Source of the DNA: Rugalucina vietnamica
Taxonomy: Eukaryota; Mollusca; Bivalvia; Lucinida; Lucinidae
Length of the DNA stretch: 64,000 nucleotides
Reading direction: 5' to 3'
NCBI GenBank assembly: GCA_964017185.1
Contig: OZ024869.1
Location: 65,887,431 to 65,951,430, forward strand
Shown: piece by piece, positions 7,909 to 61,650 of the stretch
How positions within the stretch are numbered: position 1 is the stretch's first letter
Layout of the letters: every line of letters starts with the position of its first letter
Program-made: the position numbers and the translations under genes
The notes under the pieces: model-generated
Databases searched by the model: none
Told to the model about the DNA's origin: nothing
The model's input: only the letters and a program-made list of their open reading frames with translations

Positions 7909-7961
7909 TTGTTGTTGTTGTTTTTTTTTTCAAAATGCTATGAAATTTCAAATCGATCAAG
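7473..7961. other. 3' flank of sulfotransferase gene A, with poly-T tract
   Basis: Resumed direct-repeat unit, then sequence also present downstream of gene B (the TATCACTAAGTGATAAGG and CTAGGGCATGCCTTTT phrases, near 43990-44040). The long poly-T at about 7863-7907 is A-rich on the coding strand. A minus-strand AATAAA (TTTATT on plus) lies near 7730 and could be the polyadenylation signal of gene A. Confidence 0.55.
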
Positions 7962-8792
7962 TTATTTATAGAATTTTTCGTAACCAAATAGAAGATAATC
8001 TAAATCGTATATAGATTCTAATTTTGAAATTTTATAATAAGGTACATCTTTATAGAACTGTTCAACTACTTCTGAACTTTTCCTTTGCCTGTATCCAGTT
8101 TCCTCCCTTTTTGGAATAGTAACAGCATTTTCTGCACCAATTCTTTCTAGAATGATGGTCATATCATCGTCATAATTTTCTAAACTAGCAACAAAATCAT
8201 ACCTTAGCTTGCAAGGGTTGCATAGTTTGTATATTTGCCGATTTGGTTTTGCGAACCCTTTGCTCTCAAGTAAACCGTCTACATATTCATTAAAAGTTGG
8301 CTTGGTCGAGTTCTTCTTGAATTTTGCAAACAAACCATTTGGTTTGTTGTCTCTGTAGGCCGACACTACTCTTTCAAGTGGGTGCCGTACAAACATGACT
8401 GATGTGTACGCCTTTAAACGGGGAATGACGTCTTTAATGAAGTTTGGTTTGCTCTTTGCGAAAAAATCGCCAGTTAAATGTCTAGCTATCGCCGTTTTTA
8501 TTTTCCCAGTATCAGTTTCATTTGTGAGGTCATTTAAGATATAGAAAATTCTCTGAAGGTTTGTGCCCCCAACCTTAGCAGCTTTGCATCCGTATACCTT
8601 ATAGCGATCAGACACCAGTAGCATCGGTGGAATGTCTGCGGGAGTTAATTTATCAAAAGACACTGGTTTCCATAATTCATCGCAGATTCTGTTTGTCAAC
8701 TTTGTTCGTTGTTCCATCGTCATATTTGGTATTCTATGGACGTACATCCGTTTATCTATCGACAAATTTGTAGACCTGTGACCAAGTATCTC
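7962..8792 (-). CDS. Sulfotransferase gene A, exon 3 (catalytic domain), HNK-1ST/CHST8-14-like
   Basis: Last coding exon of a predicted Golgi carbohydrate sulfotransferase (Sulfotransfer_2 family) that uses PAPS. The acceptor is CCATTCCAG before GAG at 8792; it joins exon 2 in phase 0 and adds nine residues before the longest plain open frame. The exon encodes 276 aa of a 325-aa protein. The 5'-phosphosulfate site is CKAAKVGGTNLQR, where the family's usual Pro is Ala. The 3'-phosphate site is FVRHPLERVVSAYRDN. A downstream CNPC followed by YDFVASLENYDDD fits the family's C-terminal signature. Total length is near the short end for the family. A paralogue with the same structure lies at 44271-62225 (gene B). 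Target sugar unknown. Confidence 0.9.
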   Translation of the reverse strand, partial: EILGHRSTNLSIDKRMYVHRIPNMTMEQRTKLTNRICDELWKPVSFDKLTPADIPPMLLVSDRYKVYGCKAAKVGGTNLQRIFYILNDLTNETDTGKIKTAIARHLTGDFFAKSKPNFIKDVIPRLKAYTSVMFVRHPLERVVSAYRDNKPNGLFAKFKKNSTKPTFNEYVDGLLESKGFAKPNRQIYKLCNPCKLRYDFVASLENYDDDMTIILERIGAENAVTIPKREETGYRQRKSSEVVEQFYKDVPYYKISKLESIYDLDYLLFGYEKFYK

Positions 8793-9201
8793 CTGGAATG
8801 GTTTGAAACGTTTAATTATTATCTATTTTATTTCAATTGTTATAAACGCGTTCTAGAAGACACAGGTGTTGGCGTTATGGGGTCAAACATGGTGGATGAA
8901 ACTAAAGAACCCGGGAAAAACACCGAACATGGACGGGCAAGCATAATATCTCCTGCTTTGTACTGAGATTTAACATCTTGTTTTCTTACTATTTTGTCAA
9001 TCTATCTGAAAGTGCAAATTGAACCCGTCGGTGGTCAACGTAAAATAAAAAGTTGAATTATATCTGGTGGTCATTTTGAGCGTTTCCTGTTAATATTAGT
9101 TTTCGCGATATTCACTGAGGAGAAAGGTACGGTACTTAGACTTTGCGTGGATTTTCTTGAATTTACAGCACTATAGTCTGGCTTTCGTTGCCGCTCTAAA
9201 A

Positions 9202-9247: not shown

Positions 9248-9571
9248 ATACTATCTTCCTTTGACTATTTTACTGCTTCCAAAGGATACAAACCTTTTAT
9301 TTTATTTGCTTTTATTGTGTTGGTGTTGTGTCGTGTGGCGGCTCTCAAAAGTATCCCCGTACATCATACATAGTGAAGATTATATTTTTTTTCGATCCTT
9401 TGCGATCAGTAATGTGGTATTCAGAGTGTTCAAACACTTACGTTTAGGAACATAATTCTTATCATTTTTCAATTATTTGGCCCCGTTGAGGAATGTGTCT
9501 TTGATTTAGACTTCTCGTGCATTTTCTTGAAATTGCAGCATTATAGTCTGTCTTTCGTTGCCGGTTTAAAA

Positions 9572-12800: not shown

Positions 12801-12943
12801 ATGTACTTTTTATGTTAGTTGAACTAGGAATGTGTTGCTGAAATAGCTCGTTTTTATTCTAAAGATACAGGCGAATGAATACATAATTTAGGGGTAACAT
12901 GCATGCCTGATAGTTCGTCTCTCACTAATGAGAAAGACCATCA

Positions 12944-13849
12944 TTATTTCTTGAATAGTGCTGATGTGTGTTGGTGAGTTCTTTGATGGCTGACTAGGCC
13001 AATTCTGGCTCTAAACTGTCGGTTGCAAGTAGAGCAAGTCAATGTCATAGAATCTGATGGTGGCACATTTGTTTTGGCTTTGCGCTCTCTTTGCTTTCTT
13101 TCAGCTTCACAGATTCTCTTCTTTTCATAAAGAGCTGCTCCTTTGTTGATGAGACCTCGCCACTTTGATCGCTCCTGTGCAGTCTGTTCCCAGGACCCCA
13201 TTGGTATTTTGAAATCCTTCAGAGAGGCTTTGAGGGTGTCTTTGTAGCGTTTCTTCTGGCCACCTTGAGAGCGCTTTCCCTCCTGTATTTCTCCATAGAA
13301 AACTTTCTTTGGAAGTCGCGCATCAGGCATTCTTATAACATGGCCAGTCCATCTTAGCTGTGCTAGCTTTAAGACTGTATGCATGCTTTGCATCCCTGCT
13401 TTCGTCAGGACCTCTGTGTCTGGAATCTTGTCCTGCCACTTGATTTTTAACAACTTTCTCAAACAGCTTAAGTGGAAATGGTTAAGTCTCTTTGCATGGC
13501 GTTGGTATACTGTCCAGGTCTCACATGCATACAAGAGGGTTGGCAGTACCACAGCCTTGTAGACTTTCAGCTTGGTGTCAAGCTTGATTCCATTTCGCTC
13601 CCAGACATTTGCACGGAGTCGTCCGAATGCCACACTAGCCTTTGCAATTCTGGCAGTGATCTCATCATCAATATGCACTGCTCTGGAGAGAGTGCTTCCC
13701 AGGTAGGTGAACTTGTCAACAACTTTCAGTTTTTGCCCATTCACAGTGATGGTTGGTTCATTATATGGCTTTCCGGGCGCTGGTTGGTGTACAACCTCTG
13801 TCTTTTTTGTGCTGATTGTGAGATCATGATATGATAGTTCGTCTCTCAC
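12944..13849 (-). pseudogene. 5'-truncated LINE ORF: RT thumb and C-terminal region only
   Basis: 301 codons. After a few junction-derived residues (MRDELSYH) it matches residues ~773-1063 of the adjacent LINE protein with few substitutions. It lacks endonuclease and RT catalytic motifs but keeps the C-terminal C2H2 finger. It cannot be functional for retrotransposition. It arose either by template jumping or reinsertion of a 5'-truncated cDNA, or by local duplication. Confidence 0.85.
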
Positions 13850-13867
13850 TAATGAGAAAGACCATTA

Positions 13868-16800
13868 TTATTTCTTGAATAGTGCTGATGTGTGTTGGTG
13901 AGTTCTTTGATGGCTGACTAGGCCAATTCTGGCTCTAAACTGTCGGTTGCAAGTAGAGCAAGTCAATGTCATAGAGTCTGCTGGTGGCACATTTGTTTTG
14001 GCTTTGCGCTCTCTTCGCTTTCTTTCAGCTTCACAGATTCTCTTCTTTTCATAGAGAGCTGCTCCTTTGTTGATGAGACCTCGCCACTTTGATCGCTCCT
14101 GTGCAGTCTGTTCCCAGGACCCCATTGGTATTTCGAAATCCTTCAGAGAGGCTTTGAGGGTGTCTTTGTAGCGTTTCTTCTGGCCACCTTGAGAGCGCTT
14201 TCCCTCCTGTAGTTCTCCATAGAAAACTTTCTTTGGAAGTCGCGCATCAGGCATTCTTATAACATGGCCAGTCCATCTTAGCTGTGCTAGCTTTAAGACT
14301 GTATGCTTGCTTTGCATCCCTGCTTTCCTCAGGACCTCTGTGTCTGGAATCTTGTCCTGCCACTTGATTTTTAACAACTTTCTCAAACAGCTTAAGTGGA
14401 AATGGTTAAGTCTCTTTGCATGGCGTTGGTATACTGTCCAGGTCTCACATGCATACAAGAGGGTTGGCAGTACCACAGCCTTGTAGACTTTCAGCTTGGT
14501 GTCAAGCTTGATTCCATTTCGCTCCCAGACATTTGCACGGAGTCTTCCGAATGCCACACTAGCTTTTGCAATTCTGGCAGTGATCTCATCATCAATATGC
14601 ACTGCTCTGGAGAGAGTGCTTCCCAGGTAGGTGAACTTGTCAACAACTTTCAGTTTTTGCCCATTCACAGTGATGGTTGGTACATTATATGGTTTTCCGG
14701 GGGCTGGTTGGTGTACAACCTCTGTCTTTTTTGTGCTGATTGTGAGATCATAGTTATCACATGACTGTGAGACTTGATCCATGGCTCTTTGCATTTTTGC
14801 CTCTGTGTTGGCATTCTTATCCATATCATCTGCATAGAGGAGCTCATCTAGCACATCAGTCTGGACCTTAGTTTTGGCTTGCAACCTTCTGAGGTTGAAT
14901 ATGTTGCCATCAAAACGGTACCTGATTGGAAAACCAGTGTCACTGTCCTGAAAAGCATCCAGAAGCATGGCAGAAAACATCATGCTGAACAGTGTTGGTG
15001 CCAGAACACAGCCTTGTTTGACCCCATTTGTTACTTCAAATGGTTCAGAGAACTCTCCATCATTTTGCACACGTGCCTGCATGCCATCATGAAACTGCCG
15101 CACCATAGCTATGAATCTGGGTGGACAGCCAAACTTGGCCATGATTTTCCAGAGTCCATCACGACTAACAGTGTCAAAAGCTTTGGTGAGGTCAACAAAC
15201 GTCATGTATAGATCTACATTCTGTTCTTGGCATTTCTCCTGAAGCTGTCTTGCTGTGAAGATCATGTCTATTGTCCCTCTGTCTTTTCTGAATCCACATT
15301 GACTTTCTGGGATAAGTCCCGTCTGATCAAGATGAGCATTCAGACGATTTAACAGAATTTTTGCAAGTATCTTCCCAGCAATTGATAGGAGGGAGATGCC
15401 TCTGTGATTGTCACAGACTTGAGGATTTCCTTTCCGCTTGTATAGGTGGATTATGGATGCATCCTTAAATTCTTGTGGGATAGCCTCCTTCCTCCACATA
15501 CAGTGAAACAACTCTGTCAGTTTCTCTGCCATGGGTAGCCCCCCAGCCTTGTAAACTTCGGCAGGAATTGCATCTGCACCTGGGGCTTTGCCAGATGATA
15601 GTTGTTGAACTGCTTTTCTTGTTTCCGTAACGGTAGGAAATTCATCTAACAGAACATTGCACTCTATCTGTGGAAGTCTGTCGATTGCATCCTGATTGAT
15701 GCTTGATGGTCGATTAAGCACACTATTGAAGTGTTCTGCCCACCTTTCCAAGATAGCTTCTTTATCTGTGAGAAGAGTGTTTCCATCTGCACTGAGCAAT
15801 GTGGTGGCTCCAGAACTCTTTGGACCATAAATGGTTTTCAGTGCATCATGAAATTTCTTCATGTCCTTTCTATCCGCAAAAGACTGAATTTCTTCTGTTT
15901 TCTTCTTCAGCCAGGAATCTTGCATGTCCCTAAGCTTGGTCTGGACTGTCTTACAAATGTTGCTGTAGGCTGCTTTCTTTGATACTGAGCTAGTATCATC
16001 TTGATGTGCCTTGAGCAAACGGTGCTTTTCTTCAAGAAGCCTCTGAATTTCATCATCATTCTCATCAAACCAGTCTTGATGTTTGCGAGATGGATGGCCT
16101 AAGGTGCTTGCAGCTGAAGAAAGAACTGTTTTATGGAAAACTGTCCAGTTTTCTTCGGGGTCCTCTGAACTGAGATTCATTGCATCCAGTTGGTTGCAAA
16201 TGTCTGTTAAGAAATCTTGTCTCATGCTGTCTTTATTCAGCTTTGAGACATCCAGTCTCTTAGGAGCTTTCTTGCCTTGAGGTCGCCTCGCAGGCTGTAT
16301 TCTTAGGTTGAGTTTGCTGACAACCAGTCTATGATCTGTCCAGCAGTCTGCACCACACATAGTCTTTGTCACTTTAACATCCTGCCTGTCTGTTCTCCAC
16401 ACTATGACATAGTCTATGAGATGCCAGTGTTTGGAACGGGGATGCATCCAGGATGTTTTGTTCCTATTAGGTAGACGGAAGACTGTGTTGGTGATTAGAA
16501 GATCATGTTCAGCACACTTCCTGAGAAGCAAGAGACCATTGCTGTTGCACTTTCCAACCCCTTCTGGACCTATAACTCCTTCCCAGGTCTGGTGGTCTGT
16601 ACCCACTCTGGCATTAAAGTCGCCAAGAAGGATAAGCTTGTCTGTGCGGGGTGTTGCAGAAATAACATTGTCTAGGTCATCATAGAACTTGTCCTTGACC
16701 TCATCTGGATTGGTCATTGTGGGTGCATAAGCACTGACAATAGTTGCATGTTTATTGCCTGACAGAGGAAGTCTCAATGTCATTAGACGGTCATTAATGC

Positions 16801-17140
16801 CTTTTGGCAATCCTGACAGCTTACCAACAAGTTCTGTTTTGATGGCAAAGCCAACTCCTGCTTCACGCCTCTCTTCACTTTTGCGTCCACTCCAGAAGAA
16901 GGTGTATCCAGCACCAACTTCTTTGATCTCCCCAACATCTGCGAACCGAGTCTCACTCAATGCAGCTATCTGTATATCATACCTCCCAAGTTCTCTGCCC
17001 ACAAGGGCCGTTCTACGCTGTGGTCTATCTGACCCAGCACTATCCATTAGAGTGCGCACATTCCATGCGCCAATCCGTAAGGGGATTACTCTAGCTTTTT
17101 TCTTTGTATTTCGACCGCTTAAGGGGATCCCCGCTGATCG
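13868..17140 (-). CDS. LINE polyprotein: APE-type endonuclease, reverse transcriptase, C-terminal zinc finger
   Basis: The frame is open from about 17140; the first ATG is at 17059 (1063 aa). The endonuclease N-terminal signature (AWNVRTL) lies across and before that ATG, so the normal start is upstream and non-AUG, or has been lost. Endonuclease motifs include SETRF, YAPT, LLGDFNARVG, and SKHWHLIDY and TDHR near residue 235. RT motifs are VDLTKAFDT, GVKQGCVLAP and the catalytic YADD (about residue 742). Then comes a Cys-rich thumb region and a C2H2-type finger (C1034, C1037, H1050, H1054). The frame has no internal stop, suggesting fairly recent insertion. It acts at chromosomal target sites by target-primed reverse transcription. 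Confidence 0.88.
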   Translation of the reverse strand, partial: RSAGIPLSGRNTKKKARVIPLRIGAWNVRTLMDSAGSDRPQRRTALVGRELGRYDIQIAALSETRFADVGEIKEVGAGYTFFWSGRKSEERREAGVGFAIKTELVGKLSGLPKGINDRLMTLRLPLSGNKHATIVSAYAPTMTNPDEVKDKFYDDLDNVISATPRTDKLILLGDFNARVGTDHQTWEGVIGPEGVGKCNSNGLLLLRKCAEHDLLITNTVFRLPNRNKTSWMHPRSKHWHLIDYVIVWRTDRQDVKVTKTMCGADCWTDHRLVVSKLNLRIQPARRPQGKKAPKRLDVSKLNKDSMRQDFLTDICNQLDAMNLSSEDPEENWTVFHKTVLSSAASTLGHPSRKHQDWFDENDDEIQRLLEEKHRLLKAHQDDTSSVSKKAAYSNICKTVQTKLRDMQDSWLKKKTEEIQSFADRKDMKKFHDALKTIYGPKSSGATTLLSADGNTLLTDKEAILERWAEHFNSVLNRPSSINQDAIDRLPQIECNVLLDEFPTVTETRKAVQQLSSGKAPGADAIPAEVYKAGGLPMAEKLTELFHCMWRKEAIPQEFKDASIIHLYKRKGNPQVCDNHRGISLLSIAGKILAKILLNRLNAHLDQTGLIPESQCGFRKDRGTIDMIFTARQLQEKCQEQNVDLYMTFVDLTKAFDTVSRDGLWKIMAKFGCPPRFIAMVRQFHDGMQARVQNDGEFSEPFEVTNGVKQGCVLAPTLFSMMFSAMLLDAFQDSDTGFPIRYRFDGNIFNLRRLQAKTKVQTDVLDELLYADDMDKNANTEAKMQRAMDQVSQSCDNYDLTISTKKTEVVHQPAPGKPYNVPTITVNGQKLKVVDKFTYLGSTLSRAVHIDDEITARIAKASVAFGRLRANVWERNGIKLDTKLKVYKAVVLPTLLYACETWTVYQRHAKRLNHFHLSCLRKLLKIKWQDKIPDTEVLRKAGMQSKHTVLKLAQLRWTGHVIRMPDARLPKKVFYGELQEGKRSQGGQKKRYKDTLKASLKDFEIPMGSWEQTAQERSKWRGLINKGAALYEKKRICEAERKRRERKAKTNVPPADSMTLTCSTCNRQFRARIGLVSHQRTHQHTSALFKK

Positions 17141-17149
17141 CGGTTAACC

Positions 17150-17990: not shown

Positions 17991-18453
17991 ACTGATTACA
18001 TGTTACAGTAGCAGTTAAACTGACCTGACCGGACATGCATGCCTACAAGCTTATAGACAAGGTTGTCTATAGGTTTCAGTCCTCATTACACTCATTAACA
18101 AAAGAAATGTAACATTGACAAAATCGGAGCTTTGCAGAGTGGGAAATGGCAAAACAAGGTTGAAATTTGGTATTTGAGGGCCAGGATATTACGTTGGTGT
18201 TTTATTTCTATCAAAGTCGCAATGAGACATCACATATTATGTAAAATTAAAATATAAAACGGGGTCCTAATAATTTTTGATGGAACAATAAATCATCTGA
18301 CCGTATACATATTTTGTAGCCTCATGGGATGTGCACACATCATGGTTTGTCATTTTCTACAAGTTGTTTCGATTAAATGTCATGTAGAAGAACTCTATAA
18401 GTACCTGTGCTTTCGTTCTAATCATATTAAATAATGTATATGTATATGTATGT
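17991..18453. other. Intron 1 of gene A between LINE and retrozyme
   Basis: No gene, repeat or RNA seen beyond short A/T-rich runs. Confidence 0.35.
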
Positions 18454-18497
18454 TGGTCACTGATGAGGCTTGAATAGCCGAAACCGCGGTGTGGCCC
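18454..18497 (+). ncRNA. Hammerhead ribozyme motif, cleavage base changed
   Basis: Core CTGATGA is at 18460 and stem II GGCT/AGCC has loop TGAAT. GAA is at 18480-18482, stem III is ACCGCGGT (18483-18490), and stem I is GGTCA with TGGCC. Position H17 is G (18491), which the hammerhead does not tolerate, so cleavage is predicted to be lost in this unit. Confidence 0.78.
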
Positions 18498-18824
18498 ATC
18501 ACTTTCTCATTAATATGCTCGCTGCTCTTAAAATATTTCAGTTTTATTTTTATTTGCCATTGCTGCAGCTGGTGTTGTGTCGTGTGGCGGCCCTAAAAGT
18601 CTCCCCGTACACCATCCATAGTGCAGATTATATTTTCCTTTTGGTCCGTTGAGATCAGCAAGTGTATTCTGAGAAATCAGAAATTGATTTTCGGAGATTC
18701 ATTTTCTAACCAATATTTAATATATTTGGTTCCATTTGGATATTTCAAGTCTTTGTATTGACTACCATATTGAAAGTTTCAAAGATACTGTAATTCTCTA
18801 TGGCTCCATGTTACCAAATGTAAA

Positions 18825-18868
18825 GGGTCACTGATGAGGCTTGAGTAGCCGAAACCGCGGTATGGCCC
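18825..18868 (+). ncRNA. Hammerhead ribozyme, type I, all core residues intact
   Basis: Stem I GGGTCA (18825-18830) pairs with TGGCCC (18863-18868). The core CTGATGA is at 18831-18837. Stem II GGCT/AGCC has 5-nt loop TGAGT, then GAA at 18851-18853. A15.1 pairs U16.1 in stem III, and H17 = A (18862) is the predicted cleavage site. Stem III is the self-complementary octamer ACCGCGGT, only 3 bp with a 2-nt loop if folded alone. As in known short-stem-III hammerheads, it would be more stable as a dimer of two tandem units. Confidence 0.85.
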
Positions 18869-19070
18869 ATCCCTTTTTACATTAATATGCTCGCTGCTCT
18901 TAAAGGATTTCGTTTGTATATATTACAGGATATAAACTTATTTTCTGTCTTTGCCAGAAAGCTTCACGAGAATGTTTACTGATTATCGAAGTGGTTTCAA
19001 TCAACACGTTTGAAATTACAAATATTTCGTAAACAAACACGTTGTACATGCAAAAGAAAGATCGACTTAC

Positions 19071-23574: not shown

Positions 23575-24685
23575 TTTCTAAATTTTATCGTAGACACTGT
23601 AATGAATTGATTTCCAAAAACAATGTTGGGTTAAAGACGCTTTTAAGTGAGGGCCTTTCGGAACCTGAATTTTATAGTGACTTGGTTTACAAATTTAAGA
23701 AGTCAGAAAAATCATAACAAGTTACAGACGTATAGGTTATAACTTGAATGTTATGCGACAGTCTGCATGCTTAGTTTTTAACCCAATCATGGTTGATAAC
23801 TATGCTGCCTTCTTCAATTGCACGCCGGTGGGTCGGGTGTCAGACTCTATGATGGCCCCGACTTAAAGCTATTCATTTTAGTTGGTTGGGACCGGAGCTT
23901 CTTGTCTGTTGCTTGACCCACCGGGGTCCAACTGGTGTTTTTCTTTTGCTCCGGAGTTAGTAGGTTATTCGGCGCCCAGGGATCTTCATCGTCGGGCAGG
24001 TTACTCAATCTGTGAGTCCTGGTTTTTGATTTATCAGGATGTTTATCGTGATTTATTTGTTTGTTCTTGATGATTCATTGACTAGTTAGTGATTCACCAC
24101 GAGGACCGAATAACTAACTAAATGTTATGAACCACTGCAGAAGCTGAGGGTGAGGTTATGGTCATGTAAAACCGTTTTAAGCCCGCCAGTAACTTTGTGT
24201 TACTGATCGTTCCAAGGCGATACTTCTGTGGTGGTTCTTTTTGTTTTATGTATTGGTGTTTAAATTTTTTGTGTTGTTGGCGCCTTATGCATGTTTTCAT
24301 ATTTTTAGTTAAGTTTAGGTAACTGAGTGGCCACCTATTGGGAAAATAGCTGCTCATTCGGCTTACGATATGTTTTCATGGTATAAGTACCTGGGGCCAG
24401 TTGTTCAAAACTTTGTTAGCTTAACGTCATCGTTAAGACCTCAACTCGTTAAGTTAATGCCGACTGCATTGCAAAGGATTCTCACATTTTATTAACAAAA
24501 AGTAACAGTGTATTTGTATTATTCATGTTCGAAAGTTTGAAAAATCATTAACTAACGACATCGTTAGTTTTGAACAACTGGCCCCAGATTGTTAGTTTGG
24601 TTTTTACCCACCTCGGATTTTGGAGTGAGAATCTTTTTTCTATTTGCGCCTTTTCCTGATCTTTGCCTACTTGTACCTGTTTAAA
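23575..24685 (+). mobile_element. Family A retroelement copy with RT-tail coding remnant, interrupted by a MITE
   Basis: Colinear with 40262-41190, with a MITE inserted at 24393-24585. The coding remnant at the left is frameshifted and lacks a segment present at 40370-40410. Ends at CTACTTGTACC. Confidence 0.85.
24393..24585. mobile_element. MITE with 20-bp terminal inverted repeats
   Basis: The ends are GGGGCCAGTTGTTCAAAACT and its perfect reverse complement, with inner GTTAGC/CGTTAG inverted pieces; 193 bp, no ORF. It cleanly interrupts a family A copy between CCT and GATTGTTAG, which other copies show as contiguous. The exact TSD is ambiguous (TG/CA-type 2-3 bp). Confidence 0.85.
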
Positions 24686-39941: not shown

Positions 39942-40085
39942 TGGTCTGAAGAGGTCGTTTATCGATATAGATTCGTATAGAAATAGATCGTAATAGCTCA
40001 GTCCCGTAGTAAGGACCGGAAAGTCTTGGTCCGAAAAGTCTAGGTCGAGTTTGTCCGAAATAGTGAAAGCCAGAGAACGGCTTAC

Positions 40086-41194
40086 TTTTTTGGATGGTGA
40101 CGTTCCTCGTCGTGCTTCTTATGGTGTATACATTTCGCAACTTATTAGGTTTGCTAGAGTCTGCAATCATGTTACAGACTTCAACGCTCGAAATAAATGT
40201 TTAACGGCAAAACTTCTCCAACAGGGCTATCGGTATCATAAACTTCGAAAAACCTTTTCTAAATTTTATCGTAGACACTATGAATTGATTTCCAAATATA
40301 ATGTTGGGTTAAAGACACTTTTAAGTGAGGGCCTTTCGGAACCTGAATTTTATGGTGACTTGGTTTACAAATTAAAGAAACTTAAAGGAATAAATGATTT
40401 TTCTCTTCAGTTCGGAAAAATCATAACACGTTACAGACGTATAGGTTATAACTTGAATGTTATGCGACAGTCTGCATGCTTAGTTTTTGACCCAATCATG
40501 GTTGATAACTATGCTGCCTTCTTTAATTGCACGCAGGTGGGTCGGGCGTCAGACTCTATGATGGCCCCGACTTAAAGCTATTCATTTTAGTTGGTTGGGG
40601 CCGGAGCTTCTTGTCTGTTGCTTGGCCCACCGGGGTCCAACTGGTGTTTTTCTTTTGCTCCGGAGTTAGTAGGTTATTCGGCGCCCAGGGATCTCCATCG
40701 TCGGGCAGCTTACTAAATCTGTGAGTCCTGGTTTTTGATTCATCAGGATGCTTATCATGATTTATTTGTTTGTTCTTGATGATTCATTGACTAGTTAGAG
40801 ATTCACCACGAGGACCGAAGAACTAACTAAATGTTGTGAACCACCGCAGAAGCTGAGGGTGAGGTTAGGTACCTGTAAAACCGGTTTAAGCCCGCCAGTA
40901 ACTTTGTGTTACTGATCGTTCCAAGTCGATACTTCTGTAGTGGTTCTTTTTGTTTTGTGTCTTGGTGTTTAAAATTTTTTGTGCTGTTGGCGCCTTATGT
41001 GTGTTTTCGTGTTTTTAGTTAAGTTAAGGTAACTGAGTGGCCACCTATTGGGAAAATAGCTGCTCATTCGGCTTACGATATGTTTCATGGTATAAGTACC
41101 TGATTGTTAGTTTGTTTTTTTCCCACCTCGGTTTTTGGAGTGGGAATCTTTTTCTGATTGCGCCTTTTCCTGATCTTTGCCTACTTGTACCTCT
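40086..41194 (+). mobile_element. Family A retroelement copy (longest in window), 5'-truncated
   Basis: Insertion into the BEL right LTR. The left 490 bp is coding (see next entry), followed by ~620 bp of 3' untranslated sequence shared with the other copies. No poly-A tail; ends at TACTTGTACCTCT. Variable 5' truncation with a constant 3' end indicates a non-LTR or Penelope-like retroelement. Confidence 0.85.
40091..40575 (+). pseudogene. C-terminal tail of a reverse transcriptase polyprotein
   Basis: An open frame of ~160 codons starts inside the protein (DGDVPRRASYGVYISQLIRF) and runs to a stop at 40575. From general knowledge of the family, the YGVYISQLIRFAR ... LL.QGY....L segment resembles the region after the palm in retroelement RTs widespread in molluscs. 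No catalytic motif remains because the 5' end is truncated. The relation to Penelope-like RTs is a guess from the QL.R.AR.C pattern. Confidence 0.6.
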
Positions 41195-44206: not shown

Positions 44207-44270
44207 ATAATAAATGAGAACACGTTTTTTTTTTTTCAAACTACCTTAACAGTTCAAATCGATCAAGCTA

Positions 44271-45099
44271 TTAATAGAATTTTTTGTAACCAAAAAGAAG
44301 ATAATCTAAATCATATATCGATTCTAGTTTTGAAATTTTATAATTAGGAACATCTTTATAGAAGTTTTCAACTAGTTCTGAACTTTTCCTTAACCTGTAG
44401 CCAGTTTCCTCCCTTTTTGGAATAGTCACAACATTTTCTGCACCAATTGCTTTAAGAATGATGGTCATATCATCGTCATAATTTTCTAAACTGACAACAA
44501 AATCATACCTCAGCTTGCAGGGGTTGCATAGTTTATATATATGCCGATTGGGTTTTGCGAAACCTTTGCTCGCAAGCAAACCATCTACATATTCAGTAAA
44601 GGTTGGCTTGGTGGAGTTTTTCCTGAATTTTGCAAACAATCCATTTGGTTTGTTATCTCTGTATGCTGACACTACTCTCTCAAGTGGGTGCCGTACAAAC
44701 ATAACTGACGTGTATGCCTTTAAGCGGGGAATGACATCTTTGGAAAAGTTTGGTTTGCTTTTTGCGAAAAAAATCGCCAGTCGTTTTTCTAGCTATTGCC
44801 GTTTTAATTTTCCCTGTGTCGGTTTCATTTGTGAGACCATTTAAGATATAGAAAATTCGCTGAAGGTTTGTGCCTCCGACCTTAGCAGCTTTGCATCCGT
44901 ATACTTTATAGCGATCAGACACCAGTAGCATCGGTGGAATGTCTGCGGGAGTTAATTTATCAAAAGACACTGGTTTCGATAATTCATCGCAGATTCTTTT
45001 TGTCAACTTTGTTCGTTGTTCCATGGTCATGTTTGGTAGTCTGTGGACGTACATTCGTTTATCTGTCGTCACATCTGTAGATCCTTGGCCATGCCACTC
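44271..45099 (-). pseudogene. Sulfotransferase gene B, exon 3, with one-base frameshift
   Basis: Paralogue of gene A exon 3. The acceptor ATTCATTCTAG before GAG at 45099 is conserved in position and phase. The coding sequence matches gene A throughout, including KAAKVGGTNLQR and FVRHPLERVVSAYRDN, and ends one codon earlier. A run of seven A at 44767-44773 replaces six in gene A (8461-8466). This shifts the frame between the two PAPS-binding motifs, so the two halves are in frames 44680-45072 and 44271-44702. Everything else is intact, so this is either a very young pseudogene, an allele, or a homopolymer error in the assembly. Confidence 0.88.
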
Positions 45100-45414
45100 C
45101 TAGAATGAATTTGAGCATAGATTAACGTATTTTGTATAATAATACGTTGTTATATACCAAATGCATCCTACCATTGATACTTGTGATGTTGTAACGAACA
45201 ACACTTACTACATGTTAAGTGTCGCAGGGCAATAACATTATTAAGGCCCTGATATGACGTCTGATACATGTATGTTGTGAGCGCTGACAGATGTACATTT
45301 CATCTAAGCTTAACTTTAAAGCATTTTGACAGATACCGTGTGATTTCAGGTTATGTGCTCTGAAAAGTATACATTTCAAGATTAAAGCCTCAGTATCCGT
45401 TTTACAGTGATAAA
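45100..45414. other. Intron 2 of gene B, no feature seen
   Basis: Unique AT-rich sequence. Confidence 0.35.
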
Positions 45415-48379: not shown

Positions 48380-48930
48380 AACTCACCTGAAGGTGAGCTT
48401 ATACGATGGCCATGCTCCGGTGTCCGACCGGTGTCCGTAATCTCTATTTGAAATCACTTGGCCAATCAAAGCCAAACTTCCTGTGCAGCATCCTTATGAA
48501 AAGGATACGAAAGTTTATATAAATGGTGCAGGTCACATGACAAAGAAGGCCGCCATGGCTATAAATAGCACAAACATTTAAAAGAACCAGAAGACACATG
48601 GCATGAAGCATTAGGAAGAAGAGCTCTACAAATTTTATATCAATTATGACCCTGTGATGACCTTGTATACTGTGATGACGTGTATACTTCCATAATACAT
48701 GTATTCAAAAATATTCTCCAAACGTCATGTGGAGCATCCTTAGGAAGGGGGAGCGAAATTTTACCTAAATGGTCTAGGTCACATCACCAAATTGGCCGCC
48801 ATGGCTATAAATATTCAAAACGTTTAAAAATTCTTCTTCTCTAAAACCAGAAGGCATATGATTTAGATGTTGGCATGGAGCATTAGGGACAGGAGCTCTT
48901 CGCGGTTTATATTAATAAATAAAAATAAAC
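48380..48930 (+). repeat. Family B repeat, forward
   Basis: Starts with the inverted pair CTCACCTGAAGGTGAG, then CGATGGCCATGCTCCGG, TTGGCCAATCAAAGCC and two diverged body units. Confidence 0.72.
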
Positions 48931-49605
48931 CTGAGACCCTTTAAGAGCAGTGAGCATATTAATGAGAAAAGGGGTGGGCCATACCGTGGTTTCGGCATCT
49001 TAATAAAATATAATTAAGCCTCTTTAGTGACCCTTAAGATTTGGCAAATGGAGCCAAAGGGAAATACTGTGATTTTGCAACTTTCAATAGGAAAGTCGAT
49101 ACAAAATCTATTATCATCCAAACAGAGCCAAATATATAAAACGTTGGTTAATGAATCTAAACCGATAATGAATTTCGGATTTCTCAGAATACTCTCGCTA
49201 ATATCAAAGGACCAAAAGGAAAATATAATCTGCACAATGGATAAAATACGGGGAGACTTTTTAGGGCCGCCACACGGCACAACACCTGTTGCAGTAATAG
49301 CAAATACAAAATAATACCTGGATCCTTTAAGAGCAAATAAATGAGAAAAGGGATGAGCCATACACCTGTTTCGGCTACTTCAGCACTTTCATTGGCCCTT
49401 TAAATTTGGCAAAATGGGGCCAAAGAGAAAAAAAACTTAATTTCGCAATTTTCAATAGGATAGATAGTAGATACAAAGACTAGTATTATCCAAACAGAAC
49501 CAAAAAATAAAACGTTGGTTAGAAAATGAATGTAAACCGATAATGAATTTCTGATTTCTCAGAATACCCTCGCTGATCTCAAAGGACCAAAAGGAAAATC
49601 ATGAC
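48931..49605 (-). mobile_element. Retrozyme-like repeat R370, subfamily 1, decayed dimeric copy
   Basis: Reverse orientation; about 1.8 units with period ~379 bp. Hammerhead remnants are at 48976-49033 and 49355-49398. The first keeps stem I (GGGTCA/TGGCCC), GAAA and ACCACGGT but has CTAAAGA for CTGATGA and an enlarged stem II. The second keeps AGCCGAAAC but has lost the CTGATGA block. The interior matches 18540-18820 closely. It lies in intron 1 of gene B, on the same strand as the gene. Confidence 0.78.
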
Positions 49606-53159: not shown

Positions 53160-54600
53160 AGTGTCAACAACTACAATACTGGACAAAGTGAAATTCGAAA
53201 CTATCCAAGATGTTATTGTTAACCTTGTTACTTAAAAGAATGAAGAAGATCCGATCAAAATTGAAGGTGCTAGAGTGCCCACAACAATAAATATTGATTT
53301 TTCAGACATTTAAGGGCAGCTAACTTCGCAGTCATAGATCGGATCTGGCTGAAATTCGAACTCATCCGAGATATTATGAAAGTTCTTGTTACTTCCACGA
53401 ATGAAAGAGATCCGATCAAAATTAAAGGAGATACAGTGGCCAAAACACAGAATATTATTTTTTCAAAGAATCAAGGGCAGCTAACTCTGCAGTCAAGGGT
53501 TGGATCTGGCTAAAATTCAACTCATCCAAGATGTTATAATTATCCTTGCTACTACAAAGAATGAAAAAGATCTGATCAAAATTGAAAACGCTGGAGTGGC
53601 CAAAACACTAAAAATTGATTTTTCAAACATTCAAGGACAGCTAACTCCGCAGTCCAGGGTCGAATCTAGCTCAAATTCAAACTCATCCAAGATGTTATGG
53701 TTATCCTTGTTACTTTTAAGAATGAAGAAGATCCAATCAAAATTGAAGGCGCTAGAGTGCTCACAATACAAAATATTGATTTTTCAAACACTAAAGGGCA
53801 GATAACTCCCCAGTCAGAGGTATGATCTGGCTGAAATTCGAACTCATCCGAGATGTTATGGCTATCCTTGTTACTTCCAAGTATGAAGAAGATCTGATCA
53901 AAATTGAATACGCTGGAGTGGCCACAACACTAAATATTGATTTTTCAAACATTCAAGGACAGCTAACTCCGCAGTCCAGGGTCGAATCTAGCTCAAATTC
54001 AAACTCATCCAAGATGTTATGGTTATCCTTGTTACTTTTAAGAATGAAGAAGATCCAATCAAAATTGAAGGCGCTAGAGTGCTCACAATACAAAATATTG
54101 ATTTTTCAAACACTAAAGGGCAGATAACTCCCCAGTCAGAGGTATGATCTGGCTGAAATTCTAACTCATCCGGGATATTGTAGTTAGTCGTGTTACCTGC
54201 AAGAATGAAGACGATCCACTGAAAAACAAAGATGCCAGAATGGCCACAACACAAATTATTGATTTTTCAAACACTCAATGGCAGATAACTCCGCAGTAAG
54301 AGGTCGGATCTGGTCGAAATTCGAACTCATCCGAGTTGTTATAAATGTCCTTGTTACTTCCAAGAATAAAGAAGAACCGAATAAAAATGAAGTCGCTAGC
54401 GTGGCCGCAATACAAAATATTGATTTTTCAAACACTCAAGGGCAGATAACTTCGCAGTCAGAGGCCGGATCTGGTCGAAATTCGAACACATCCGAAATGT
54501 TACGGATGTCCTTTTTACTGCTAAGAATAAAGAAGATCCGAATAAAATGAAGGCGCTCGAGTGTCCACAACACTAAATATTGATTTTTCACACAGCCAAG
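53160..54600. repeat. 160-bp tandem array, left part (about nine units)
   Basis: The phrase GGGCAG(C/A)TAACTCCGCAGTC recurs at about 53312, 53473, 53634, 53795, 53957, 54118, 54280 and 54440. The dimer 53500-53820 is nearly repeated at 53822-54140, so there is a 322-bp higher-order unit. Reading frames in it are by-products. Confidence 0.88.
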
Positions 54601-60300: not shown

Positions 60301-61094
60301 TGTTATATATAATTGATTCAATAATATTGATTCTTTTAAAAGCTATTACTTATAATTTATATCTATATAATCAAAGGGGAGTAACCCAATTAATTAATAT
60401 ATATTTCTTTTTATGTTTCTACAATTTATTATCTAGAACTTTGTAGAAGAATGTCATTGATTATTTTTATCACTGTTATATAATTTAGAAGTATAGAAAA
60501 TTCTATGAGCACTTTGTGGATAATTCCAGATGAAAATGGAGTGAGTGTTTGTTTTACCATAAGTTAAAAATATATTTGGACTATGTATACTGAGATCTCG
60601 AAGGGTCTAGTGGACTCTCGTTTAGTCTTGATGGTCGTTGCGGCCTTGAATTCTCTCTGGAGAATTCTAAATTCTCTTTGGAGAATTTAAAAGAACTTTC
60701 GTTTAGTTCGTTTCTTTTCTAGAGAAAAGTTTATTATATCATTCTCTAGAAACCTGGAGAATTTCCTTAGATGTATAAATATAGGTCCCAATTCAGTCTT
60801 AGGCATTCAGAAATTTGAAGTGATTTAAAGTATATAATTTTGGTTGTTTCACTAGTGTTTTGTGTGGATTAAAATATACATGTGCTCATATTCTGGTTAC
60901 TGGATTGTGGACTTACATTTGAGGGACAAGGACTTATTTGACATTAACTTTGTAAGTTATTTATTTATTTATTTACTTATCTGTTTGTTTGTTTTTATGT
61001 ATTTGCAGCATTTATTTGTTTGATTAAATATTGTTAAGTTTAAATTACTTGGTTGTTTTTCGCTGTACCTGTCTAGTTACGCTAGGTCGTAACA
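60301..61094 (+). repeat. gmr1-type right LTR (794 bp)
   Basis: Identical by reading to the left LTR except for the short T-run, where it has TTTGTTTT. Confidence 0.93.
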
Positions 61095-61650
61095 CAAGGG
61101 CGAAATACTCTGCAGTCAAGGGTCGGATCTGGCTGAAATTCGAACTCATCCGAGATGTTATGGCTATCCTTGTTACTTCCAAGTATGAAGAAGATCCGAT
61201 TAAAATTGAAGGCGCTAGAGTGGCCACAACACAAAATAATGATTTTTTAAACACTCAAGGACAGCTAACTCCACAGTCAGTTGTCGAATCTAATTGAAAT
61301 TCAACCCATCCGAGATATCATAGTTGTCCTTGTTACCTGTAAGAATGAAGAAGATCCACTGAAAAATAATTGCGTAAGAGTGGCCACAACATTTTTCCCA
61401 TTATAAGTCTAAGGGGATTTTTCCAGACGCTCAAGGGCAGCTAACTCCGCAATCTGAGGTCAAACCTAGCCGAAATTCGAAGTCGTCCGAGATGTTATGG
61501 CTGTCCTTGTTTTTCCCAAGAATGAAGAAGATTCAATTAAAAATGAAGTTGCCAGAGTGGCCACAACATATTCCCCATTATAACTCAATGGTAGCTATCT
61601 GTTGCCATGGAAACCAGAGTTCTGATCCGACCTGGCCCAAAACCCAATAC
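61095..61650. repeat. 160-bp tandem array, right part
   Basis: Continuation of the array after the LTR insertion. About three to four units, diverging to the right, then the ACGG tract at 61738-61765. Confidence 0.83.

Follow-up and report, generated by a model that had tools for sequence, protein, structure and literature searches.

Hammerhead-bounded, non-coding units that give rise to RNA circles are found in plants as LTR retrozymes, and in this they resemble the family described below. They differ from it by a type III hammerhead, a length of about 700 bp, an LTR, a PBS, a PPT and a target-site duplication (TSD) of 4 bp, as given in the portion covered here of Cervera and de la Pena (2020, PMC7229834). 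Much closer is the retrozyme that the same source describes from the mussel Mytilus galloprovincialis, which also has a type I hammerhead, tandem units, low GC and coexisting Penelope-like elements (PLEs). Its unit measures about 350-390 bp (about 375 bp here) and there are about 5000 hammerhead copies in that genome; the likeness is one of description, and the portion of the main text covered mentions no fixed 3' end. As regards mobilization, the part of a 2020 review covered here states that animal retrozymes have no conserved motif revealing an autonomous mobilising element (PMC7761336). Minimal hammerheads are also present in PLEs. In the PAc elements of Anolis the hammerhead lies, as it does in our family, shortly before the 3' end of the insertion, and the distance from cut to end is 85-92 nt by our arithmetic from figures in the covered part of the paper (Frangieh et al., 2024, PMC11167929). 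According to that part, the Anolis PLE starts reverse transcription in vitro at internal RNA sites downstream of the hammerhead, its genomic copies end at those internal sites, and the enzyme cleaves and extends the two strands of the DNA. Truncation at the 5' end is common to PLEs and the elements studied here, as probably is the internal initiation of reverse transcription, and a few head-to-head pairs occur here too, but PLEs encode a reverse transcriptase (RT) and a GIY-YIG endonuclease, whereas the retrozyme has no ORF of at least 95 aa. SINEs are likewise non-autonomous, with a common 3' end and scattered 5' ends. The retrozyme differs from them in having repeated units, a ribozyme, no tRNA found and a probable internal initiation instead of one at the RNA 3' end.

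The window, that is, the whole stretch of 64,000 nucleotides that was analysed, belongs to the lucinid bivalve Rugalucina vietnamica. A preliminary description had placed at 18454..18915 a retrozyme-like dimer of two hammerhead motifs; the location holds, but the insertion extends slightly further, to about 18925 in a global alignment. The features are listed here with unit phases, in which phase 1 is C3 of the hammerhead core and phase 32 the last base before the cut.

18455..18925, plus strand: retrozyme insertion (about 1.26 units) that runs from phase 372 to about 97 (BLAST to the family consensus over 18455-18915, global alignment to ~18925, repeat of period 371)
18455..18497, plus strand: hammerhead copy 1, core at 18460-18466, G17 at 18491, predicted inactive (motif search, descriptor)
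18825..18868, plus strand: hammerhead copy 2, of type I with its core complete; cleavage predicted after A18862 (motif search, descriptor, alignment)
18492..18862, plus strand: 371-nt unit between both predicted cut sites (spacing 371)
18863..18925, plus strand: 3' tail, which starts at the cut site and reaches the common 3' end of the family, phase 33 to about 97 (end common to 52 of 67 mapped ends)
9295..9487, plus strand: second retrozyme insertion, a fragment without hammerhead, phase 84-282 (BLAST to the consensus, E 2.9e-31)
48917..49599, minus strand: third retrozyme insertion, some 1.8 units from phase 175 to 97, with two decayed hammerheads and the common 3' end (BLAST, alignment)

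The last two insertions were absent from the preliminary description. The two motifs at the main locus are present where it had put them, 371 bp apart within a direct repeat of that period, and the second is indeed complete, with all core residues. Its stem I is made of GGGTCA and TGGCCC (18825-18830 and 18863-18868), the core CTGATGA occupies 18831-18837, stem II with its loop reads GGCT-TGAGT-AGCC (18838-18850), GAA stands at 18851-18853, and the stem III segment ACCGCGGT at 18854-18861 is followed by A18862 as H17. In copy 1, position 17 is a G, with which we presume that cleavage would not take place, and only copy 2 is an intact motif. With a dead first ribozyme, the transcript of the window copy itself is not expected to yield a trimmed 371-nt monomer. 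In this respect the preliminary description reads too much into the copy, an insertion of 1.26 units. The self-complementary stem III had also been taken to suggest a dimeric ribozyme. It is compatible with a dimer without making one necessary, since invertebrate hammerheads with a 2-bp stem III and a tetraloop cleave efficiently as single motifs, according to the parts covered of two reports (PMC7229834; PMC7761336). The unit is non-coding as claimed, with no stop-to-stop ORF of at least 95 aa overlapping 18455-18925.

The element had further been described as lying antisense inside a sulfotransferase intron. The opposite orientation is correct, but the intron is unsupported, because the nearest sulfotransferase exon (7962-8822, minus strand, 9.6 kb from the retrozyme copy) already spans nearly the whole PF03567 profile (positions 3-252 of 252). 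In addition, tblastn with 15 sulfotransferase homologues gave pieces only at this exon and at a second copy (44274-45123), none between them. A LINE ORF with RT and endonuclease (13868-17143, minus strand) lies between the exon and the retrozyme. Several other repeats are found in the window. The two sulfotransferase copies (7921-8800 and 44227-45107) are 89% identical, the second one split over two frames; the end of the LINE ORF is tandemly duplicated (12908-13827 and 13832-14751, 98.5% identical, spanning 12908-14751); and a 161-bp unit is repeated 8.7 times in a tandem array at 53189-54594, similar units being present at about 61091-61586. A SECIS_1-like hairpin exceeds the Rfam gathering score (35.8-39 bits vs. 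35) in four places, at 23841-23908 and 40550-40617 of the window and in two of the genomic loci extracted for this work (L064:43-110 and L012:3330-3397); the copy at 40550 overlaps the end of an ORF without Pfam match (39997-40575).

In the 1.09 Gb of genome searched (47 contigs), the hammerhead motif has 9156 matches with at most one mismatch (4560 and 4596 on the two strands), against none for the reversed pattern. A 465-bp query gave at least 99 matches from the 40 candidates scored among 8632 first-look ones. Two sets of loci were picked, L001-L030 by similarity to the window and L061-L090 by the exact hammerhead, both of which favour well-kept copies. The counts of ends, units and motifs given below come from 51 loci, after 9 overlapping ones were dropped; L018 and L030, which belong to one large array region, are non-independent, as are L062 with L088 and the two copies in L003. 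Some 375 bp is the overall length of the unit (374-377 bp in 34 of 44 distinct units), a copy may hold anything between about 0.3 and 8 units, and the GC content is 0.391 in the consensus unit and in 18455-18925 alike, below the 45-50% taken as the limit for retrozymes. Its type I hammerhead, a unit size within the range of about 150-450 bp, multimers, copy number in the thousands, low GC and lack of coding capacity identify the feature as an animal non-LTR retrozyme, the type that the preliminary description had recognized. This is an already described kind of element, of which the present family is one more member. Exact-pattern scans of viral contigs gave no match, and no relative outside the host genome was found there.

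The predicted hammerhead of the family is conserved across copies, with one covarying pair. We compared 87 motifs that had not been chosen by the pattern, in a search that allowed 9 mismatches and left N7 free, which somewhat favours the contrast between the core and N7 (T in 25, A in 27, G in 3 and C in 32). Mean agreement was 0.957 at nine core positions, 0.946 in stem III, 0.923 in stem I, 0.895 in stem II and 0.772 in loop II. H17 is A in 84 of the 87, and the sole G is that of copy 1 in the window. The covarying pair is 9-19 of stem II, G-C in 49 and A-U in 11 of 62 distinct motifs, thus paired in 60 of 62, while shuffles gave a mean of 51.4 and a maximum of 56 (kinship among copies uncontrolled). 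The other helix pairs were hardly above shuffles (e.g., 46 of 62 for pair 6 of stem I, with a shuffle mean of 45.5) and therefore give no independent support for the fold.

Most copies of this family end at one position. Among 67 mapped 3' ends, 52 fall at phase 92-104, where 2.3 would be expected, about 65 nt beyond the predicted ribozyme cut. The proportion is 24 of 27 when only the hammerhead-chosen loci are considered, and 4 of 10 for further pieces in these loci that were not themselves chosen by the pattern. The 15 ends elsewhere include that of the window copy, whose diverged tail was scored at phase 86 in the end mapping and at about 97 after realignment. The 5' ends are scattered and mildly enriched at phases 360-376 and 1-12 (17 of 67 vs. 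5.2 expected; 6 of 27 in the hammerhead-chosen set, binomial p 0.006-0.024), an excess that is partly non-independent because flanks are common to L062 and L088 and to both copies of L003. Genome-wide searches with two mismatches allowed (reversed controls 0-1) gave 16233 matches for phase 49-72, 10335 for 97-120, 12596 for 157-180 and 11122 for 343-366. The largest step in this series spans the common 3' end. Corrected by detection rates of 0.87, 0.96, 0.95 and 0.87, derived from the same locus sample, the counts become about 18.7, 10.8, 13.3 and 12.8 thousand. The value for 343-366 stays below that for 157-180, contrary to a strictly monotonic rise, and this deviation persists after the correction.

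RNA cut by the ribozyme would be expected to end at the cut (phase 32/33) and not at 97, and multi-unit copies cross both positions. For this reason we consider that reverse transcription probably has its start within the unit, the cut site being unbroken in the RNA template. The flanks of the copies are ordinary sequence of about 35% GC, and TSDs, which in animal retrozymes exceed 4 bp when they are present, are nearly absent. A search beside the copies gave 6 of 52 at a score of at least 8, vs. 2.7 by chance, and a single long duplication in 52 (L079), in a flank that is itself repeated. When more distant repeats were sought, 3 of 49 copies (L079, L062, L003) beat all shuffles, with 48-255 bases between repeat and copy. 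As far as the literature could be read, one common 3' end may be new for animal retrozymes: we met no description of it among the titles and abstract starts listed.

PLEs are present in the same genome, as is expected where animal retrozymes occur. At least 150 GIY-YIG matches, all over the cut-off, were scored out of 451 candidates. One ORF was tested for each of four PLE families. Families A and B carry RT and GIY-YIG, family D has GIY-YIG with an RT just under the cut-off (29.5 vs. 29.6 bits), and the piece of family C has GIY-YIG only. A hammerhead-like motif was found in 24 of 30 GIY-YIG loci and, by that pattern, not in L032, L033, L043, L049, L050 and L054; two pieces beside other GIY-YIG elements (L092, L093) showed no hammerhead, and may not contain the element ends. 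From the cut to the 3' end there are 48 or 89-95 nt in family A and 41 or 132-136 nt in family B (both measured to the start of an AT tract), 70 nt in the one copy of family C measured, and 31-54 nt in family D (part measured to the AT tract start). Tracts of (AT)n end families A and B (L035-L041, L051, L056-L060) and some copies of D, and in A and B they may reflect a target preference or added sequence. Beside the (AT)n tract of L060 (from about 2690 on, oriented) and also in L093 there is the same tRNA-like sequence (GGAGCGTAGTAGCGCAGTCGG...), by eye probably a tRNA-derived SINE.

The hammerhead core is altered in three of the PLE families. In families A, C and D the core reads TTGANAA, with C3 and G8 replaced as a U3-A8 pair in 18 of 18 rows (L031, L034-L042, L044-L048, L052, L053 and L055, and genome-wide by pattern). 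The same pair is found in 25 of 25 family D matches when both positions are left free, while family B keeps C3/G8. The first pair of stem II, as we read it, is non-standard in all four families, and the PLE hammerheads may be weak or dead. A literature search on the C3-G8 or G8A change found no papers.

An internal start of copying is the reported signature of PLEs, and the 24 PLE copies above end 31-136 nt past a hammerhead-like motif, so the retrozymes are probably inserted by PLE machinery, through copying initiated internally on a template that may be either a circle or an uncut multimer. We give this reading a probability of roughly 0.6. With a circle as template, tandem retrozyme RNA would be cut by its hammerheads and the monomers circularised; a PLE protein would bind this RNA and nick the target DNA; reverse transcription would start at the fixed internal site, phase about 97, cross the ligated ribozyme junction, in some cases for several rounds, and stop at random. 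The retrozyme would then be to the PLE what a SINE is to a LINE. Head-to-head arrangement is reported for PLEs in the covered part of PMC3846280, and three retrozyme pairs are head-to-head with their 3' ends outward (L025, L029, L073). The count is small, and other pairs within 500 bp include one tail-to-tail and five in the same direction. Between the tails of family D and of the retrozyme there is an alignment of 27-33 columns, the score being reached by 6, 13 and 15 of 500 shuffles for three copies (uncorrected for the four families). If the AT tract is left out of account, inspection by eye puts both 3' ends near one column, which is suggestive only. For the other tails there was nothing (shuffles reaching the score were 362 and 227 of 500 for A, 295 for B and 250 for C). 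Apart from this weak resemblance, BLAST of the retrozyme against the PLE loci found no common sequence; a link in L057 was a retrozyme adjoining a PLE, and a match in L031 had 18 nt, at chance level. Against the PLE route we have to count the near absence of TSDs, the (AT)n tracts at which families A and B end and retrozymes do not, the rarity of family D (15 and 25 pattern matches) and the altered hammerhead core in A, C and D. Besides, a random 3' end would fall within 136 nt of the cut of a 376-nt unit with a chance of about 36%, and distance alone is therefore a weak argument.

The alternative that survives best is a variant of the PLE step itself, in which uncut linear multimers are inserted and the ribozyme and the circle are side products. 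In the covered part of the Anolis study the PLE inserts uncut RNA in vitro and ribozyme mutants still insert (PMC11167929), and the mild 5' pile-up could mark a transcript start or a copying stop, although its partial non-independence weakens this point. On the other hand, units are alike within a locus (median identity 0.969, n=114 pairs, many from few long arrays) compared with between loci (0.871, n=7091), and a copy's own second unit was its nearest or tied for nearest in 24 of 34 copies. This is what one circular template predicts and fits one circle copied repeatedly, although a homogenised source array would look alike and the long arrays supply many of the pairs. Taken together, insertion of uncut multimers is a real possibility that we hold at clearly less than even. 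We regard as unlikely that the fixed 3' end is that of a linear transcript, e.g., a Pol III stop at the T-rich GTTTTATTTTTATTT, copied by an ordinary LINE in the manner of a SINE. The common end lies exactly in this T-rich stretch, and fixed 3' ends with scattered 5' ends are the pattern of LINEs and SINEs too. Yet arrays of 3 to 8 units cross the stretch up to seven times, making an efficient terminator improbable, ARAGORN found no tRNA in 18400-19000, and no tail in common with a LINE is known to us. Still far less probable is an ordinary satellite, spread by unequal crossing-over and keeping its hammerhead by descent only. Arrays of up to 8 units do exist, but of the 27 copies in the hammerhead-chosen loci 17 fall short of a full unit, 9 have one to two units and only 1 is longer, and the copies are dispersed, with a single common 3' boundary and mostly unrelated flanks.

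As for the motifs themselves, a hammerhead descriptor built without reference to this family (core, stems I, II and III of 5, 3 and 2 bp, position 17 free) recovers exactly these two sites from the window, compared with a total of 3 over 400 dinucleotide shuffles, while a looser pattern is not significant (2 matches vs. 0.63 expected; at least 2 in 10 of 100 shuffles). The covariance check proposed in the preliminary description failed at the locus, where the best Rfam hammerhead score was 18.6 bits against a gathering threshold of 56.3, and there was no hammerhead above threshold in the window, the locus and 12 further loci (4 of PLEs and 8 of good, better-kept retrozyme copies). This looks like a limit of the Rfam models and not like evidence against the motif, and it is outweighed by the genome-wide matches with their empty reversed control. 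A missing Rfam hit was, moreover, one of three results that the preliminary description had required together for its refutation. A chance look-alike in intron DNA, for which the Rfam result and the loose pattern could be invoked, is opposed by the descriptor counts and already refuted by the 9156 genomic copies.

Returning to insertion by PLE machinery, its extension to animal retrozymes in general would make them SINE-like parasites of PLEs, with the PLE protein recognizing the hammerhead and the 3' tail and copying a circular RNA all the way round from one set point within it. We propose this tentatively, at a little below an even chance. A family-D-like PLE may be the partner of the retrozyme here, as its tail aligns and, with the beginning of the AT tract counted as its end, stops at about the same column. 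The natural paired swap of a core pair of the hammerhead (U3-A8) in PLEs is of note in its own right. A common 3' end that always follows the ribozyme at the same distance, as in the type later made by a PLE in vitro, offers a concrete and testable answer to the question of what mobilises these elements, and it is a footprint that can be sought in other animal genomes.
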